DNA of 26,177 nt from a virus. Below are positions 980 through 15,976 of this stretch, piece by piece. The notes beneath the pieces were generated by a model. It ran no database searches and had not been told where the DNA came from. It saw only the letters and a list, made by a program, of their open reading frames with translations. Both the position numbers and the translations under genes were made by a program. Position 1 is the first letter of the stretch; the number at the start of each line of letters is the position of its first letter. The DNA lies in the IMG/VR virus record IMGVR_UViG_3300027736_000222, positions 1 to 26,177 of that record, one strand, 5' to 3'.

Positions 980-1530
980 TATTCAATAACTTCAACTTCA
1001 ATTGCTTGTTCCTTGATTTTATTGGCAATGCGAGACTTTGCTTCAGCAATCATTTTGGCAGCATCGTCAATGCTTGCACCCTTACGATGTTCCACGATTG
1101 TGCTTGCCATGCCAGAGAGTTGCCCAGCTTTGTCTGTCATAATGCCGATAGTCAACGCAAGACGGTCTGGCGAGATCATCTTTAATTGCTCTGGATCGTT
1201 GGATAATTGTTCTGCTTTCTCGAACAATAGATCAGTGTACTCAGCCGCAGCAATAGCGTAGCGTTTAGAGAACTCTTTACGCTTTGACTCAAGCGTGTCA
1301 TTATGCCGCCATTCTAGCGACCTTACTAGCTCATGCGATACTTTACACTTCTTAGCAATCACGCTGATACGTCCACCCTGTGCAAGCATCCATAGAATCT
1401 GTGCAGCTACATTAGGATTGTAATGCTCGATTGAGTTGCGCGGGAATAGCTTCGCACGTTCTTTAACCTCAAGAAAGAACTCCTTAATTGCCTGTTTACT
1501 GTCAATCTCAAGAAGTTCATTATCACTCAT
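979..1530 (-). CDS. terS: Probable terminase small subunit (HTH DNA-recognition protein)
   Basis: This 183-aa protein sits directly upstream of terL and overlaps it by one base, the usual place for the small subunit that recognises phage DNA and loads the large subunit. Residues about 43-80 (NPNVAAQILWMLAQGG through VSHELVRSLEWRH) look like a helix-turn-helix, with a segment resembling the recognition of non-permissive steps (ISVIAKKCKVSHELVRSLE). The remainder is predicted largely helical and charged, fitting the oligomerisation region of TerS proteins. TerS sequences diverge strongly, so the call rests on size, HTH and gene order rather than a specific signature. An alternative is a generic phage HTH protein. 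Confidence 0.7.
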   Translation of the reverse strand: MSDNELLEIDSKQAIKEFFLEVKERAKLFPRNSIEHYNPNVAAQILWMLAQGGRISVIAKKCKVSHELVRSLEWRHNDTLESKRKEFSKRYAIAAAEYTDLLFEKAEQLSNDPEQLKMISPDRLALTIGIMTDKAGQLSGMASTIVEHRKGASIDDAAKMIAEAKSRIANKIKEQAIEVEVIE

Positions 1531-1537
1531 ATTGTTT

Positions 1538-4500
1538 TTACTTATTGCTTAAAGAACTACTTATAGCTGACGATATGCTTCTGGCAAGTGCAGGATTGTT
1601 ATATTTTTTACTAGCTTGACCAAAAGTTTCAGATTTCAATTTTGGCAATACAATACCAACCAAGTCATAAACAGGATGCTCGCGACCACGAATCGAGATT
1701 GTTGCAACTTCATTACCAATTTGCATTTCACCAACAGCAGTTGGTCTAAGTCTTGGTTCACTTCTTTTTTCAGAATATCGAGTCAAATGGACTCCATTTT
1801 CAAAGTTTGCTTTAAGAGCATAAACGTGTTTTCCTTTGCCTTCAATTGAAACAATAGTAGATGTGCTTGGTGGATTTTCAGATGTCCACTTCCATCCAGC
1901 ACTTTGTTTGAAAAGGTTTGTTTTAAATTTTGATCCTTTAAGGTTGGGTTTTGCTTCTCCATCAACAAAAAGAGATGGTTTTCCAGTCGATACATTTATT
2001 GATCCTGTTCCATATCCTTTTCCTGTTAAATCAACACCTGTTTCCGCATCAAAAAATTTTCCACCACGCTCATATGATTCTATATTAAATTTCTTAAAGA
2101 AGTTTGGAGGTTCAACATATTTCCCCCGTCGTTGCGCATCTTTTTTTGATCCAGTAAATCTTTCAGGAACTACGGCAATCTTCGGCATATACTGCTTGGT
2201 AGATTGATCTAGGATAAGTTCTCCATTACGGTTGAACCTGGGAGACTGCGGCAACAAGTTATCACGGATTGCGTAGTAAGAATTAGCACCAAATGGGATG
2301 CTTACATTACTGTTTGTTTGGATTGCACTTTGTAAGCGATCAAAAGCAAATGTTCTAAATATGCCAGATTCCAAGTCTGGAGACACTTTGCCAATCAATG
2401 GATTTATTGTAAGTTGCTTCTTTGTTTGTAATCCAAGAACTGAGTTAATAAAGTTTTTACGCCGCTCCCAATTTTTAAGATCTTTGCTTTTATAGTAAGC
2501 ATTCGTAGACTGACCTTTGTTTTGTATCGCAACTGATTCTTGGATGTCATCAAGAATTTGCTGTCTATTCAAGTTAAGTTTTTTTGCAATAGGATTCTTA
2601 ACTGCACGTTGCACGTTCTTCTCCAACTGCTTTAGATCCATGGCCTCTAAATACAACCTTCCATTACGAGAAACCCATCCAGTTGGCACAACAAGACCTT
2701 CTGCCAATCCTTCAACTTGAACTGATCTTCCTTGTTCAATTGGCTTGTTTACCGTATTTACGGCAAACTTGTTTTCACTATTGATTTGCTCTTGAAGCAT
2801 TGTAGCCATTCCAAATGTGCCATTATCAATAACGCCACGCTCTTCAAGATCTTTAAAGTGATCAATACTAAGTTGCCCTCGTCCATTGCCACTTGAGTCA
2901 ACTACCATTACATTTTCTGGCAACTTTTCTCCTGCATCAACAATCCTCTTATTGGTTGTGTTGATTGTTTCCTTTGCTTCGTAGTGGCTAGGATTAGTAG
3001 ATTTTACATCTGGAACCCTGTTGTTGACTTGTTTCAATGGTTTACCAGCAGTATCCTTGTAGGCCTGTCTAAGCATCTCCTTGACCTGTGGCAGTTCTCT
3101 CATGCCGTCTGCAAGCAGGCCTGTACCCATCACCATACGTCCACCCGCATCCGTTGCTCCACCAAACTTAAAGTGTAGGTTTTTAACAATCGGTGCAGAG
3201 GCAAACAAGTTTTTGAAGCTATTTTCAATATTCCGTCTTAATGTGGTCTTTCTTGATTGTTGGAATAACTTACCGCTTGATACGTCTTCAACCAATGCCC
3301 TAACGCCATTATCGGTATAGAACTCAATAGCTAGTTCTTCAAGACCTGCTGGAGCAATGTCATTATCCCTTCTAAGATTATTGTATTCGTCGCCCCATGC
3401 TTTGAACTCTGGATCTAGTGTTCCATCTACGTTCCTTACAAGACCACTTTGTGTTTCATCCCCAAGCATTCTTGAGACAATCATGTCATTGTTATTGTGC
3501 CTGAATTGGATCATGTGTCCAACTTCATGTGCCGCAACTGCTTCCAAAAATCCAGCTCGATCATTTAAATTTACAACTGCTTTTCTTGATGCTGGGTCAA
3601 AAAAGTTATTTCCGCTATTTTTAAATTCCCATTCAAAGAACCCTGGGTATGCTGCATCAAGAGACGAAACAAATGTCCTCATTCCGCGATCTTTGATACC
3701 ATCGTATATTGCAAGATTTTCTGGGGTAAGTTTATTGCGGTAATTGACCATTTCGTCGATGTTGGTCTGACTAAAGTCTTTTCTGCCTCCAACAAGTCTG
3801 CCCAGACCGCCAAATACTAATGCATCTCTACCAGCAAGTGCTAGAGTCTCCTCATCAATACCTTTGCTATTAATGGCATTGTAAGCAAGCGTTGCTGGTG
3901 CTGCTATAGCTGTTCCAACTGTCGCTCTAGCAAATCCTCTTGCAAGCGGTGAGGAATAGTCACCAAGAGTTGCTAATGCACCACCCAGTCCCCCAACCCT
4001 TTCGTTAGTAGCAACCCGTCTAAAAAATGGAGTTGAACTGGTACGCTCAACCATTTCTTCGCTCATAACTGAGGCGAATTTAGCTATTCCTTTAAGCACC
4101 TTAGGTGCAACTGCAATTCCAATTCTTGCTCCAAAATATGGCATAGCAACTTGTGAATATGGAACAGAAAGAATAGCTTTTCCTAACCAAGGTATCTTAT
4201 TAAATCCAACTTTTCTTTCTATTACTTTTATAAAACTATTAAGACTTGCAGCTTTATTGCCAATAGAATCCAATGCACTTGCAGCATTGCCAATAGTTGC
4301 TGCACCTGCACCGCGAACAACGTCTTGAACAGTTCTTGCACTATCTAATCCTATCTCAACCTTGTTTGCAAATGTTGAGGCATTAGCAATACCTTCATTA
4401 ATAGTTGTAAGTCTTGAACTTAATTCGCTTGTGCTTGCAGTAACTCCATCAAGACGAGTAGTTAGTTCGGTTGCTTTCTCAGTTGCTCCAATTTTCAAAG

Positions 4501-5707
4501 CATCATCAAGTTGTCCTTGGATAACCGCAGATTCTTTTTGCAAACCAGAAGCAACACTAGATAATTTAGCTTGTTCTTTGATTAGCAGTTGTCCTCTATT
4601 CACCGCTTCCATACCTTGTGCTATCTTGGTCGCGTTTCTTGCAGCATTGGCATATTTAATTAAGCCCATAGCTGTTCCAACACCTTCACCAATAACAATA
4701 GCTATTGGATCTCCCGCAACAGTTCCTACAGAACCATAATTGTTTAATGCTTTCTGAAATTCTTCTGTGCCTTTTTCACCATACTGAGCATCGTATTGTT
4801 TTTTTGTTTCAAAAACAGCGTTACTAACCTGTTCGCCAAGTCCAATTGTTGAAGCAAACTCTGCTGCATTAATACCAGCATAGGTTCGCTTAAACATTTC
4901 TGTTTTATAGGATGCTTGCTCCTTACCTGCTTTTGCTTCTTCTGGGGAGTATAGTCCTAGTGCTTCGCCAACATTCGCTCCTAAGTTTTGGAGTATTTCA
5001 GCACCTTTTACGATACCAGTTGCAGATCCACCTACAAACTTACTTGCAGCTTCCGCATTTGCTGTTGTTACTTCTTCTTTAGATTTACCGCTACCGCTTG
5101 TCATTAAGCTAGTTGCGGTTTCTAGCATAGATGCACCTTTAGGTATTTTTACTTTTGCTACATCTCCTGCGTTTGGTAACGTACCTCGAAAAATTGTATC
5201 AGCACCAGCGGCCAATCCCTTAATTCCATTCCAAAGATCAGCAAACATACCATTTTCTGATATCATGCTTTCTTTATTTAGCCCTGCTTCTTCACGAATT
5301 GAGTGCAACTTAGCTTCTTGAGCAAATTGACTAGCATCCATGTTTTTTCCAACAAAATTCGTAGTATCATATATTTTATCTCCAGATGTAAAGGCGATAC
5401 CTTTTTCCGTAAGTTCCCCATCCTTGAAAAGACCACGATCTTCCAATAGTAAGTAATCTTTACCAAGTTGTGTTGCTTCACCCTTAGCATCCAGAATGCC
5501 GCGAGCTTTCATTCCTTCCTCAGTTGTGAATGGTTGCAACTTAAATGGTGCAGCAGTTATTCTTGGATCATTTAGATCAAGATTCTGCCAATTTGGGGGG
5601 AGATAGTTGTTTTTTGTTAATTCAATATTCTTTGCTTCTCCAGCAAAGTATTCATTTAACGCGCCAACTTCAAGTTTACTAACTTCTGGATCAACTTTTT
5701 CAGTCAT
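1538..5707 (-). CDS. 1389-aa internal virion/ejection protein with HEVGH metallopeptidase motif
   Basis: This very large protein lies two bases downstream of the lysozyme ejection protein and upstream of terS. That position and size match the long internal core proteins of podoviruses that are ejected into the host to form the DNA conduit. The first half has Gly/Ala-rich hydrophobic stretches (around residues 325-350, 510-545 and 590-610) and a probable coiled coil (around 365-441). A zinc-binding HEVGH motif occurs at residues 727-731 within FLEAVAAHEVGHMIQF, with Glu-rich EELAIEF at about 790-796 as a plausible third ligand, gluzincin style. Residues flanking it (NDRAGFLEAVAAHEVGH, EFYTDNG) look like a genuine protease fold rather than a chance HExxH. 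The C-terminal third has no motif I recognise and ends in a Ser-rich tail. Role is inferred from context; the peptidase activity is predicted only. Confidence 0.75.
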   Translation of the reverse strand: MTEKVDPEVSKLEVGALNEYFAGEAKNIELTKNNYLPPNWQNLDLNDPRITAAPFKLQPFTTEEGMKARGILDAKGEATQLGKDYLLLEDRGLFKDGELTEKGIAFTSGDKIYDTTNFVGKNMDASQFAQEAKLHSIREEAGLNKESMISENGMFADLWNGIKGLAAGADTIFRGTLPNAGDVAKVKIPKGASMLETATSLMTSGSGKSKEEVTTANAEAASKFVGGSATGIVKGAEILQNLGANVGEALGLYSPEEAKAGKEQASYKTEMFKRTYAGINAAEFASTIGLGEQVSNAVFETKKQYDAQYGEKGTEEFQKALNNYGSVGTVAGDPIAIVIGEGVGTAMGLIKYANAARNATKIAQGMEAVNRGQLLIKEQAKLSSVASGLQKESAVIQGQLDDALKIGATEKATELTTRLDGVTASTSELSSRLTTINEGIANASTFANKVEIGLDSARTVQDVVRGAGAATIGNAASALDSIGNKAASLNSFIKVIERKVGFNKIPWLGKAILSVPYSQVAMPYFGARIGIAVAPKVLKGIAKFASVMSEEMVERTSSTPFFRRVATNERVGGLGGALATLGDYSSPLARGFARATVGTAIAAPATLAYNAINSKGIDEETLALAGRDALVFGGLGRLVGGRKDFSQTNIDEMVNYRNKLTPENLAIYDGIKDRGMRTFVSSLDAAYPGFFEWEFKNSGNNFFDPASRKAVVNLNDRAGFLEAVAAHEVGHMIQFRHNNNDMIVSRMLGDETQSGLVRNVDGTLDPEFKAWGDEYNNLRRDNDIAPAGLEELAIEFYTDNGVRALVEDVSSGKLFQQSRKTTLRRNIENSFKNLFASAPIVKNLHFKFGGATDAGGRMVMGTGLLADGMRELPQVKEMLRQAYKDTAGKPLKQVNNRVPDVKSTNPSHYEAKETINTTNKRIVDAGEKLPENVMVVDSSGNGRGQLSIDHFKDLEERGVIDNGTFGMATMLQEQINSENKFAVNTVNKPIEQGRSVQVEGLAEGLVVPTGWVSRNGRLYLEAMDLKQLEKNVQRAVKNPIAKKLNLNRQQILDDIQESVAIQNKGQSTNAYYKSKDLKNWERRKNFINSVLGLQTKKQLTINPLIGKVSPDLESGIFRTFAFDRLQSAIQTNSNVSIPFGANSYYAIRDNLLPQSPRFNRNGELILDQSTKQYMPKIAVVPERFTGSKKDAQRRGKYVEPPNFFKKFNIESYERGGKFFDAETGVDLTGKGYGTGSINVSTGKPSLFVDGEAKPNLKGSKFKTNLFKQSAGWKWTSENPPSTSTIVSIEGKGKHVYALKANFENGVHLTRYSEKRSEPRLRPTAVGEMQIGNEVATISIRGREHPVYDLVGIVLPKLKSETFGQASKKYNNPALARSISSAISSSLSNK

Positions 5708-9407: not shown

Positions 9408-12095
9408 TTATTTTTGTGAAATGATTTGTCTGTTGGTTACGGAACCCGCGACCATGATTGAGTGAACCTTTGGACTGCCTTGAGTCCTGTTAAGTAGTAA
9501 CGTGCCAGTAAACCCGCGTACACCACCAATACGGCAACGGATAGTCGCAGTCTCAGCCTCGTTAGTGGTACTAGGCGTAAGCATGCCACCGAGGAAGGTA
9601 GAAGTAGTACCAATAGTGGACGCAAAGTCTGGGTCTTCGGCGGAAAACGAGATGCCATACTCGCCAGTCTCGCCAGCAAGGTTCTGCATTTGGATTTGCG
9701 TGTCGGTAAAGCGTTTCCGCTCTAGAGAATTAAAGTTGTAGCCTCTAGATGTCAACGATGCGGCAATCTGCGGTGTAACGATAGTATTATCAAGGTTGGA
9801 CACGCTTAATCTGTCTTGGATCGACTCGGCAAACTCCATCTGGTGCAGACCACCGTTGCTTGTGACCGTGTATAAGTTATTTCTTACCCCGCCAGAGGCA
9901 GTAATGTAGTCCGTGATGATAAACTGGTTGTTTCCGTAGGTATCAATCGACTCCCAACCTTTATTTAGGAAGTTATACACCAATACCGCGTTGTTACCAA
10001 TGGCATCGTTAGCACCAGCAACGCTATCAAGCGGCACGGCAAGGAAATATCGGTTGTCGAAGTACACCGCTACGGCCTTATCCGCCTTGTCAGGGTTAAT
10101 CCTGTCAATGTACGGCTGGATATTCTTGGAAAGCGGTTGATCCATGCCCCGTAGGTTGTAGTCATTGAGGAACTCAAGACCGTACACCCCGTTGTCAGAC
10201 AGGAAATACATGGTGTTACCACGCATCAGAACCGTTTTACGGGCAAGGCATCCAACTTCGCCAGTAAGTTCGCGTACAACCGTATCTGTGAGGTTGCCAG
10301 ACGTATTACTAATCGAGTGGATGCTATTGCGGTTCAACACAATCATCGTGTCATCGAAGAATCCGTGCATTGCCACCACTCGATCTGCTGTGCCACCAGA
10401 AATACGGAACTGGTTGTAGATCTGATCGTAGGTATTTTCGTCAAGGATGTCGCTAATGGCTACCTCGTCACGGATATTCCTGTCTGTAAATGTAACGGTG
10501 CTAGTGCCAGATTGATCGTAGTAGTATGGCACAAACAAGCGTCTCTGGAAATACGTACCCCACGGTGCGCCTGGCAGGTGCATAAACCCGCCACCACTGC
10601 TCTGGGGTTTTGTGAAAGTTATTGAATGGCTTGCGTGATTTTCCCAATTGACGTATATTGTAAAACTAGATGTTGTCGGTACGCTTGCAACGTAGTATTG
10701 CTGACCAATAGCTGGGCCTGCTGGTGGCGAACCTGCAATATCAATAATCTCAACAAGGTCACCTTCAACCAAATTGTGAATAGCTGAAGCAGCATTTACA
10801 ACAGTTGCAATACCTCCTGCTATTGCCGTATTTCCCACAATAATCACAGGCTGGGTGTAATTACCACCTGCCATTACCGTAAACGCAGCACTAGTACCAT
10901 CCCATACAAGTGGTTGTTTCCTGTCACGGAACAAGATCACCTTGTCAAAGCATTGCTGCATATCCGTAAACGCATCTACCGTCTGTGAAGCTGGGTAATC
11001 AATTGTTGTGACCAAATAGGTATCAAGGTCGATCTTCTTGGCAACGGTATCCAACGCTACGATAACGTACTCCTTGGATTGCTCGTTAGGGTTACTAAAC
11101 AAGCAGGACGCACGGACGTTGCCAGCAGCAGAGTCGTTGACAAGGATTTGTGTAACTCTAGGCGTTGTTCCTACTATTGAAGCAGCCGTAACCCCTGCCG
11201 TCACAAATGTAAAAGTAGTACTTGTAGCGGCAGTCAACGAAACAACCCCGTTGTAGTCAACCCCAGTAAATGTAATGCCGCTAATAATTGCATTGCCTGT
11301 TTGTCCTACCACAACGCCATGTGTAGCAACAGTAAGCGTAACAAGATTACTAGCATAAGCAACAGCAGTAATTGCAGTAGATAGCTTGTTAGCCAAAGCG
11401 TTAACAACCGTATATGATCCTGCACCAGATGCTAGGGCATATGTAAACTGTGTTGTATTTGTAACCGTTATCTGGAACTTGCCATTTGGGTTTGTGCCAG
11501 TAGTAAACACAACATCTTGGATTGATACAAAGTCACCAGTAGTCAAACCGTGTGCCTCAAATATTGTAATTGTCACAACGCCACTAGTAACCGTAGCAGC
11601 AGAAATCTTTTTTGACGTAGTGGTCAACACGGAGGTTGCACTTGTAGTGTAGGAACCAGCAGCACCCGTTACTGTATAAGTAATCGTTGAACTAGATGTT
11701 GGAGCAATCGCAACAAATAACCCATTAGGGTTAGTCCCAGAAGTATAACCAATACCCTCGATTGACAACCTAGAACCAGTAGTTAATCCATGTGCTGACG
11801 CAGTAGTAAGCGTAATGGTATCACCACTTCTTGTGGCATTAGTAATTGCAATACTTGTGCCAACAATAAGGAACGGCAACTGCAATGGGTTACCACCAGA
11901 TACCAGCGCACCAGTCCTGCTCTCGACGCTCTTCCTTGGCTTCCAGTACCCCTCCATGCGCCCGTTAACGCTCTCCCGTACCTCGGTAAGTAGCAACTGG
12001 TTTAACTGGTCACGCAGGTTAACACTATTAAACGCCTTGTCACCATCACTGGCAATCGCGTCATCCAACCCACCCGTTGACCTGTATTGACTCAT
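9408..12095 (-). CDS. Tail tubular/nozzle protein B-like, with Ig-like repeat insertions
   Basis: This 895-aa protein has the outline of podovirus tail tube protein B (T7 gp12-like nozzle): an N-terminal MSQYRSTGGLDDAIASDGD with ESVNGRMEGYWKPR, a central VILFRDRKQPLVWDG, and a long C-terminal beta-propeller-like region with YFQRRLFVPYY, VVAMHGFFDDTMIVLNRNSI, LSDNGVYGLEF and VYNFLNKGWESIDTYG. Between these are four related beta-rich modules of about 70-80 residues (roughly 82-160, 164-240, 243-312, 416-495). The first two carry identical AHGLTTG and TNPNG landmarks. The modules look like decorations inserted into the conserved core. The partner would be the tail adaptor (tail tube A) and portal, which lie outside the window. 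The start has no obvious Shine-Dalgarno. Confidence 0.8.
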   Translation of the reverse strand: MSQYRSTGGLDDAIASDGDKAFNSVNLRDQLNQLLLTEVRESVNGRMEGYWKPRKSVESRTGALVSGGNPLQLPFLIVGTSIAITNATRSGDTITLTTASAHGLTTGSRLSIEGIGYTSGTNPNGLFVAIAPTSSSTITYTVTGAAGSYTTSATSVLTTTSKKISAATVTSGVVTITIFEAHGLTTGDFVSIQDVVFTTGTNPNGKFQITVTNTTQFTYALASGAGSYTVVNALANKLSTAITAVAYASNLVTLTVATHGVVVGQTGNAIISGITFTGVDYNGVVSLTAATSTTFTFVTAGVTAASIVGTTPRVTQILVNDSAAGNVRASCLFSNPNEQSKEYVIVALDTVAKKIDLDTYLVTTIDYPASQTVDAFTDMQQCFDKVILFRDRKQPLVWDGTSAAFTVMAGGNYTQPVIIVGNTAIAGGIATVVNAASAIHNLVEGDLVEIIDIAGSPPAGPAIGQQYYVASVPTTSSFTIYVNWENHASHSITFTKPQSSGGGFMHLPGAPWGTYFQRRLFVPYYYDQSGTSTVTFTDRNIRDEVAISDILDENTYDQIYNQFRISGGTADRVVAMHGFFDDTMIVLNRNSIHSISNTSGNLTDTVVRELTGEVGCLARKTVLMRGNTMYFLSDNGVYGLEFLNDYNLRGMDQPLSKNIQPYIDRINPDKADKAVAVYFDNRYFLAVPLDSVAGANDAIGNNAVLVYNFLNKGWESIDTYGNNQFIITDYITASGGVRNNLYTVTSNGGLHQMEFAESIQDRLSVSNLDNTIVTPQIAASLTSRGYNFNSLERKRFTDTQIQMQNLAGETGEYGISFSAEDPDFASTIGTTSTFLGGMLTPSTTNEAETATIRCRIGGVRGFTGTLLLNRTQGSPKVHSIMVAGSVTNRQIISQK

Positions 12096-13387: not shown

Positions 13388-13417
13388 TTTTTGTTGGCAA
13401 TGGGGGAAACGTATTAT
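13388..13417 (+). promoter_or_regulatory. Candidate early promoter just upstream of the first early gene
   Basis: TTTTTG (13388-13393) and TATTAT (13412-13417) are 18 bases apart; TTGTTG at 13391 with 15-base spacing is the alternative. The initiation point would fall near 13424, giving a leader of about 50 bases that contains GTTGAG/CTCAAC arms (13430-13435 and 13446-13451). The match is modest and no experimental support is available. Confidence 0.35.
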
Positions 13418-13473
13418 AGAGTATTGGCAGTTGAGAGAGTAACAACTCAACACAAAACAAACCAAACCAAACA

Positions 13474-13704
13474 ATGACAACGACTACCATCACAACCACA
13501 GCCGCCGAAGGGTTAATCACCGTCACCGATGGTGGTGATTATCCTGCGAGCTTCGGCCCTTACCGTCCATCGACGGCGAAAGTAATCGCCGCAGACCACG
13601 GCGATTTTTTCGCAGCAGCCATGCGTTTCCCTGGCGGAATTGGATCACCGAATTTCAGAGATATGATCGACAAACTAGCCTACGATATGGGGGGCATGGA
13701 GTAA
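13474..13704 (+). CDS. First early gene, hypothetical 76-aa protein
   Basis: The product starts with a Thr-rich low-complexity stretch (MTTTTITTTAAEG) followed by ITVTDGGDYPASFGPYRPSTAKV and a short helical C-terminus. The start is preceded by an A/C-rich leader without Shine-Dalgarno (AACCAAACCAAACA). It is the first gene of the rightward early operon, and its stop codon is followed after one base by a hammerhead ribozyme. No family recognised. The GC and codon pattern are like the neighbouring early genes, so I take it as real. Confidence 0.6.
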   Translation: MTTTTITTTAAEGLITVTDGGDYPASFGPYRPSTAKVIAADHGDFFAAAMRFPGGIGSPNFRDMIDKLAYDMGGME

Positions 13705-13705
13705 A

Positions 13706-13755
13706 GGTCGAAACGGGGCAACCCGTCTTGTGGTGATGCCACAACTGATGAGACT
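13706..13755 (+). ncRNA. Type II hammerhead self-cleaving ribozyme
   Basis: All elements of a hammerhead appear in the type II circular permutation (stem II open). Stem II: GGUC 13706-13709 pairs with GACU 13752-13755 (three Watson-Crick pairs and one G-U). Core GAAA is at 13710-13713. Stem III is CGGG 13714-13717 with CCCG 13722-13725, capped by the GNRA tetraloop GCAA. The A13713-U13726 pair and the cleavage triplet GUC (13725-13727) follow. Stem I is UUGUGG 13728-13733 with CCACAA 13739-13744, loop UGAUG. Core CUGAUGA is at 13745-13751. The predicted cut is after C13727, separating the first early gene (stop at 13702-13704) from the leader of the next gene (ATG at 13779). Core bases all match the consensus; activity is predicted, not shown. 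Confidence 0.93.
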
Positions 13756-13778
13756 ACAACAAACGACAAACAAACGAC

Positions 13779-14150
13779 ATGAAAAAGACACTTACAAACT
13801 ACGAAATTGCGCACGAATTACTACAAGATAACAACGCAGCATGGTCACGTTCCGGTGCTCTCGCCCTCGCTGAATACCTTGAACAATACGAACAAGACAT
13901 AGGCGAGGAGCTAGAGCTTGACGTTGTGGCCATCCGATGCGATTTCACGGAATATGCGAGCCTTGAAGAATGGGCTGGAATTCACTTTGCTTCTCACGTT
14001 GACGCTGTGAACGAGCTAGGGTTGACCATTGGAGACGGTGGAGCATTGGAGGAATCAAGCGAAGAACAAGACGAAGCCATCCGCGATTTTATTCAAGAAA
14101 ATGGGAGACTGATCGAATTTGACGGTGGGATCATTGTTTCATCATTCTAA
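13779..14150 (+). CDS. Conserved acidic phage protein of unknown function (123 aa)
   Basis: A strongly acidic protein: an N-terminal helix (MKKTLTNYEIAHELLQD), SRSGALALAEYLEQYEQDIGEE, then ELDVVAIRCDFTEYASLEEW, an acidic linker and a C-terminal LIEFDGGIIVSSF. I recognise this arrangement (aromatic-acidic centre and terminal FDGG-hydrophobic motif) from many phage hypothetical proteins, with no assigned role that I know. An acidic DNA mimic such as an antirestriction protein is possible but not shown. It is the first gene after the ribozyme cut, behind a leader of CAAACAAACGAC type without Shine-Dalgarno. Confidence 0.75.
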   Translation: MKKTLTNYEIAHELLQDNNAAWSRSGALALAEYLEQYEQDIGEELELDVVAIRCDFTEYASLEEWAGIHFASHVDAVNELGLTIGDGGALEESSEEQDEAIRDFIQENGRLIEFDGGIIVSSF

Positions 14151-14628: not shown

Positions 14629-14715
14629 CCCTACGGGGCAATCTAGCCAGGCATGCCACCTGATCGTCACAAGCCGATTAAATAGAGAGTGACCCACAAC
14701 AAACACGACGAAACT
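14629..14715 (+). other. Structured 87-base intergenic leader
   Basis: Directly after a stop codon there is CCC-UACG-GGG (14629-14638), a stem with a UNCG tetraloop. It is followed by the palindrome GGCATGCC (14650-14657) and the arms GUCAC / GUGAC bracketing about 19 bases. It superficially recalls the leader of the hammerhead region (GGGGCAA, GCAUGCCACCUGAU) but lacks the GAAA and CUGAUGA cores. Function unknown. Confidence 0.4.
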
Positions 14716-15409: not shown

Positions 15410-15635
15410 AAAACAAAAATGGCTGGCAAATGATAATTACAAAAATTATCTGATTAAATGTAGCGTCACCAATTCCACAACGCGATTTCACACCCGCCAC
15501 GGCAAAGAATCTTGGCAAAAATACGCTGTTTTAATCTTGGGCTTAGAGGCCATGGAAGTAGATAGGAAAAGATTTGCCTTGATGCTTTCACGAATCCGAA
15601 ACGACAACAGAATTGAAGCTAGGAGAAAGGCATGA
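15396..15635 (+). CDS. Hypothetical basic protein (79 aa)
   Basis: Starts MMTIEKQKWLANDNYKNYLI; basic, with a C-terminal helix rich in Arg (RFALMLSRIRNDNRIEARRK). Overlaps neighbours at both ends (14 bases upstream, ATGA downstream), consistent with a translationally coupled set. Possibly nucleic-acid binding from charge; no family recognised. Confidence 0.55.
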   Translation: MMTIEKQKWLANDNYKNYLIKCSVTNSTTRFHTRHGKESWQKYAVLILGLEAMEVDRKRFALMLSRIRNDNRIEARRKA

Positions 15636-15976
15636 AAACACGATTTGAGCCAGAAAATGACGAAGACGCAAGCCGTTTTGAAGAATTGCTGGATTGCGTA
15701 GCGCACGTGTTCTCTGTACCCAAGGAGGGAATCTTGAGCGATTCCAAGCTCGGCATGTACTGCACACCAAGACACCTCCTTGCGACTATCTGGAGCGAGA
15801 CTCACTCTCTCCAAGATACAGGCTGGCGAATAGGAAGAAGGCATCACGGAACGATCATGCATAGCCGTGAACGGGTTCAGTACCTGGTCGAGCATGACCC
15901 CAGATTTGCGGATGCTGCCCAGACGGTGCTTGACCTTATAAACCAGAATTTAGAGATAACTGAAAATTTGTCTTGA
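15632..15976 (+). CDS. DnaA domain IV-like DNA-binding protein (114 aa)
   Basis: After an acidic N-terminus (MKTRFEPENDEDASRFEELL) the segment from about residue 23 to 86 resembles the C-terminal DNA-binding domain of DnaA: a helix with VAHVFSVPKEGILSD, CTPRHLLATIWSE, and GWRIGRRHHGTIMHSRERV, where GRRHHGTIMHS corresponds to the DnaA signature of the type GGRDHTTVLHA. There is no AAA+ domain, so it cannot act as DnaA itself. It may bind DnaA-box-like sites in the phage origin or regulate host initiation. A Shine-Dalgarno AGGAG lies upstream and the start overlaps the previous stop by ATGA. It precedes the recombination genes. Confidence 0.75.
   Translation: MKTRFEPENDEDASRFEELLDCVAHVFSVPKEGILSDSKLGMYCTPRHLLATIWSETHSLQDTGWRIGRRHHGTIMHSRERVQYLVEHDPRFADAAQTVLDLINQNLEITENLS

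Follow-up and report, generated by a model that had tools for sequence, protein, structure and literature searches.

A compact type II hammerhead ribozyme directly behind the first stop codon of a phage early operon

We identify a complete type II hammerhead ribozyme, read directly from the sequence, at positions 13706-13755 (+) of a 26,177-nucleotide viral DNA (IMG/VR record IMGVR_UViG_3300027736_000222; "the window" denotes this whole stretch). With a probability of roughly 0.77, judged from sequence, this hammerhead cuts the early polycistronic phage mRNA once in cis, giving the first gene a fate separate from that of the genes after it. Comparison with relatives confirms 13706-13755 as a real, well-conserved type II hammerhead. 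The type II hammerhead is a known kind of ribozyme (Rfam RF02276, Perreault 2011, PMC3088659); what appears new here is a further example, from a compact group that Rfam does not report. The features of the window on which the argument draws are as follows.

9408-12095 (-): virion protein, 895 aa; in phage records its relatives carry the annotation head closure or phage stabilization protein
13394-13422 (+): weak promoter-like candidate, TTGGCA-17-TAGAGT, ahead of the early operon; its 9 of 12 matches do not exceed chance in this region
13474-13704 (+): ORF1, 76 aa, opens the rightward (early) operon and belongs to no known family; homologue in L246
13705 (+): A directly 5' of stem II; A in all 150 compact-group copies among the matches listed, at a base the search pattern left free
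13706-13709 (+): stem II 5' strand, GGUC; sequence and fold, pairs covary
13710-13712 (+): catalytic core GAA (G12, A13, A14); sequence and covariance model
13713-13726 (+): stem III, ACGGG (13713-13717) with CCCGU (13722-13726), GCAA tetraloop (13718-13721); sequence, fold and covariation
13727-13728 (+): C17 and the predicted cleavage site between these two bases; homology with the hammerhead core
13728-13744 (+): stem I, UUGUGG (13728-13733) with CCACAA (13739-13744), loop UGAUG (13734-13738); sequence, fold and covariation
13745-13751 (+): catalytic core CUGAUGA; sequence and covariance model
13752-13755 (+): stem II 3' strand, GACU; sequence, fold and covariation
13756-13778 (+): CA-rich leader of the next gene, without a Shine-Dalgarno motif; sequence
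13779-14150 (+): ORF2, 123 aa, second in the operon, phrog_9974 of unknown function; family match

The hammerhead core, CUGANGA and GAAA with an NUH cleavage triplet (here GUC), is present in the correct connectivity. Stem III has five base pairs and is preceded by GAA-A15.1, and stem I has six and carries a loop of the UNANG type. Stem II consists of three Watson-Crick pairs and one G-U pair, with A13756 directly 3' of it; its end is open and stems I and III are closed by loops, the arrangement of type II. The original prediction had given this identity, and its coordinates prove exact to the base, as do its three stems (GGUC/GACU, a GCAA-capped stem III and a six-pair stem I), which read and fold as it described. 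The minimum-free-energy fold of 13700-13765 is the hammerhead structure, at -17.7 kcal/mol; folding energy by itself is not decisive, because its z score is only -1.8.

A search of the whole window with Rfam at gathering score gave no match for the hammerhead at 13706-13755. When only a 70-nt stretch was searched, Hammerhead_II (RF02276) aligned over its full length at 21.7 bits (E 0.0076), against a gathering score of 37. This miss is a property of the compact group and not of the window copy: the 37-bit cut-off was passed by none of the 25 compact copies counted (17 copies in 17 loci and 8 in a second set), and 12 long-loop type II copies passed Rfam in the same run that missed the 8 compact ones. 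Because the Rfam model is based on a pseudoknot, the compact group escapes it. A generic type II descriptor matched once in the window and nowhere in 10.5 Mb of sequence simulated to the same dinucleotide composition. We also built a covariance model (R1) from 46 phage copies, leaving out the window and its nearest relative, and R1 scored the hammerhead at 63.8 bits (E 4e-16), compared to 9.3 bits for the next best place in the window. The covariance-model check proposed with the original prediction thus fails with Rfam at gathering score and succeeds with R1. Since the search pattern was modelled on the core of the window copy, relatives found through a protein provide a more independent test than R1.

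Some 290 loci in IMG/VR carry the virion protein at 9408-12095 and represent a widespread group of uncultured phages. From these, 80 loci were recruited via the 895-aa protein and then scanned with R1, which found nine hammerheads in 8 of them (L243, L246, L273, L274, L280, L294, L309 with two, and L320). Each of the eight loci repeats the arrangement of the window, with one hammerhead in the early operon, upstream of the virion gene and oriented divergently to it. L309 carries its second hammerhead at 1256-1307 (+), in the same early region and on the strand opposite to the first. Across the window and the eight loci, 99.3% of cells are paired, and 12 of the 15 pairs show compensatory change, in all three stems, so that each helix is backed by covariation; none of 500 shuffles of the nine early operons reached as high a value. 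The genes around the ribozyme differ. L246 has an ORF1 homologue, 73% identical, with the hammerhead directly after it and a TAG stop that overlaps the ribozyme; an ORF2 homologue lies downstream of the hammerhead in L320 and upstream of it in L294; and L243 has other genes on both sides. The hammerhead is therefore kept in the early operon while the neighboring genes change. The predicted place between the first two early genes holds for this phage but not for its relatives. By R1, 13 relatives with about 3-5 kb of flank have no hammerhead, and they contain no other Rfam ribozyme, so the hammerhead is dispensable in this phage group; of the roughly 21 related early regions whose flank is long enough, 8 have it. 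A DNA similarity search of annotated phages gave no match to the window, nor did tblastn of ORF1 in phages.

To describe the compact group more widely, IMG/VR was scanned twice, by core spacing and by the loop GTNANGC; each scan gave at least 120 stretches, and the counts are lower bounds. Once the stems were required, at least 150 non-redundant compact copies were obtained. Invariance of the core, of the closing pairs and of the loop consensus was built into the search pattern, which left free the other stem pairs and the base preceding stem II. In the 46 phage copies, the 15 pairs are formed in 99.9% of cells, with a covariation of 0.867 versus 0.182 in shuffles. Among the matches listed, the base preceding stem II is A in 150 of 150 compact copies, in 58 of 75 copies with a 3-bp stem II and in 36 of 46 other 4-bp copies. 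Judged from sequence, the compact group, with its UNANG stem I loop and 4-bp stem II, is abundant in phage contigs and comprises at least hundreds of phage ribozymes alike. Compact hammerheads also occur as single copies in many phyla and in multiple copies in bacterial genomes (L331, L334, L380 and L385; Phycicoccus, Streptomyces and a Pyrinomonadaceae MAG). Several contigs (L051, L119, L009, L117 and L113) carry several hammerheads each, with a maximum of nine in 8.5 kb, resembling a system that processes RNA gene by gene.

The group differs from the published consensus in tertiary structure, as far as pairing potential can tell. Among the matches listed, the longest Watson-Crick run between loop I and the tail is 1-3 in 144 of 150 UNANG copies, while 67 of 85 long-loop copies reach at least 4; with tails swapped, about 25% reach this length. 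At the group level, the pairing that marks pseudoknotted type II hammerheads (loop I with the tail 3' of stem II, at least 4 bp in a majority) was not found, and the compact group has no evident loop I-tail pseudoknot of the published kind. Because the 2011 study, in which the pseudoknot is used by about 40% of hammerheads, allows that others use other contacts (PMC3088659), a pseudoknot-free type II hammerhead is not new in itself. Mutual information between the N positions of loop I and the nucleotides flanking stem II gave no signal pointing to a tertiary contact. We also considered a reverse Hoogsteen A-U pair between loops I and II. The A preceding stem II is present in all nine relatives as well as in the 150 compact copies among the matches listed, and the U of loop I is invariant in the nine relatives too, although in the wider set that U belonged to the search pattern. 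We infer that A13705 may be a partner of the stem I loop.

The stop codon of ORF1 (TAA, 13702-13704) ends one nucleotide ahead of stem II, which bears out the expectation that the ribozyme sits right after the first early gene's stop. Distances between hammerheads and genes were measured with a simple ORF rule. A start -1 to +4 nt from the upstream stop was found for 103 of 139 compact viral copies and 91 of 131 other viral type II copies among the matches listed, and for 37 of 63 compact copies in bacterial genome contigs, many of which are MAG contigs and may be phage. This amounts to about 70% of the phage type II hammerheads examined, and 59-74% across sets. Among the matches listed, 30 of 139 compact viral copies start at distance -1, where stem II opens with the final base of the stop codon. 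For the compact viral set among the matches listed, 88 such starts were observed versus 27 expected with random placement in the gap; if the 15 nt before the next gene are reserved, 59 are expected, a 1.5-fold excess. Group members lie on the sense strand, with the next ATG about 22 nt past the hammerhead. In openly accessible papers we found no report of this stop-codon spacing or of the UNANG loop group, and the main text of PMC3088659 does not mention stop codons.

A sense-strand position between a stop codon and the next ATG supports punctuation between genes, and the variation of the genes on both sides among relatives argues against regulation of one particular gene. We propose that the early transcript would be cut between C13727 and U13728. 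The ORF1-containing upstream product would run a few nucleotides past the stop codon and terminate in the stem III hairpin, its 3' end being a 2',3'-cyclic phosphate. ORF2 would become the first gene of the downstream product, whose 5'-OH would sit immediately at the 6-bp stem I hairpin, with the CA-rich leader coming next. A hairpin would cap each new end, and the chemistry of the ends would suit neither the usual exonucleases nor decay that depends on a 5'-monophosphate. RNase E and RNase J prefer 5'-monophosphate and free 5' ends, and 3' exonucleases need free 3' ends; given these preferences, both products should be protected. The likely effect would be to uncouple the stability and translation of the first gene from those of the remaining genes. 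Cleavage, the chemistry of the ends (from the known hammerhead reaction), end protection and the benefit to the phage are inferred steps of this proposal, and stability of the leader gene and protection of the 5' end, the functions offered by the original prediction, can reasonably be suggested. The cutting of long polycistronic phage transcripts by hammerheads has been proposed before, and tandem hammerheads of bacteria and prophages (arrays) cleave both in vitro and inside E. coli; of 18 consensus-like hammerheads, 4 were inactive in vitro (PMC3088659).

Other features of these genomes were observed in passing. The early-gene leaders of the window (13449-13473, 13756-13778 and 14694-14715) are CA-rich (e.g. 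caacaaacgacaaacaaacgac) and have no Shine-Dalgarno motif, and L243, L274 and L320 have runs such as (CAA)n between ribozyme and start codon; such leaders may be the translation signal of an unusual host. A 1389-aa virion-region protein at 1538-5707 (-) has a HEVGH motif typical of zinc metallopeptidases and no Pfam or PHROG match, and a 114-aa early protein at 15632-15976 (+) matches the DnaA C-terminal DNA-binding domain (PF08299).

One alternative or addition to mRNA processing, a reasonable possibility that we nonetheless regard as unlikely, is that translation controls the ribozyme. A ribosome terminating at 13702-13704 would cover stem II and the GAAA strand, restricting cleavage to times when translation of ORF1 is poor or the ribosomes have moved off; the ribozyme would report on translation of the upstream gene. 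The stop-proximal starts of 59-74% of hammerheads, in excess of both the uniform and the reserved expectation for the compact viral set, are consistent with this, as is the observation that the ribosome's shield reaches about 10 nt beyond the A site and that terminators a few base pairs after a stop codon are repressed by ribosomes (PMC4824070). The same spacing, however, is expected from simple compactness (the shortest possible 3' end), and the excess over the reserved expectation is small. The broader proposal, that a large pseudoknot-free compact group is fused to stop codons and would couple cleavage and the fate of the downstream mRNA to upstream termination, strikes us as similarly doubtful. 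It is quite improbable that the hammerhead is a relic or a selfish or neutral passenger, spread by phage recombination with little effect on expression: its patchy presence in the related early regions and the different neighbors each time would fit, but compensatory evolution is strong in all stems, the core is unbroken, and orientation and place relative to stop codons are constant. Release of a short or circular RNA instead of mRNA processing, as with viroid and retrozyme hammerheads and as the arrays in L009, L051 and L119 might suggest, is highly improbable, as a single ribozyme is unable to excise a unit and this record has only one copy. Chance resemblance, which the missing Rfam match at gathering score might suggest, has a negligible probability given the empty simulated search and the R1 E value, and is refuted by the syntenic, covarying relatives.

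Why phages carry hammerheads is a question that has stood since 2011. Because a very common compact group falls below the Rfam cut-off, hammerhead use in phages is undercounted. The window contributes one ribozyme whose homologues in related phages form a covarying set, and the usual place after stop codons suggests a function that can be tested directly: processing of the mRNA gene by gene, perhaps under the control of termination.

Among known systems, the closest are the hammerheads of RF02276, with which the window hammerhead shares the open stem II, the catalytic core, the GUC triplet and the intergenic setting in phages or prophages; RF02276 hammerheads, too, often occur several per genome and flank genes. 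The RF02276 (2011) consensus has a pseudoknot between loop I and the 3' tail; its stem II is short and its stem I loop larger. In the window hammerhead, by contrast, stem II has 4 bp, stem I has 6 bp and ends in a UNANG pentaloop, the A preceding stem II is invariant and no pseudoknot is evident. A 4-bp stem II is shared with type III hammerheads of the loop-loop class such as sTRSV, in which loops I and II are in non-canonical contact. As a lead only, we take the A preceding stem II to occupy the position of the last A in the sTRSV stem II loop. Unlike type III hammerheads, in which stem III is open, the window hammerhead has stem III closed and stem II open. In its early-region setting it resembles HHphage of haloviruses HF1 and HF2, which lies just upstream of an early gene and whose cleavage site is within 3 nt of a mapped early transcript 5' end (PMC3088659). 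HHphage differs in that it has a variant core, belongs to an archaeal virus and precedes the first ORF of its transcript, whereas the window hammerhead follows the first ORF of its operon.
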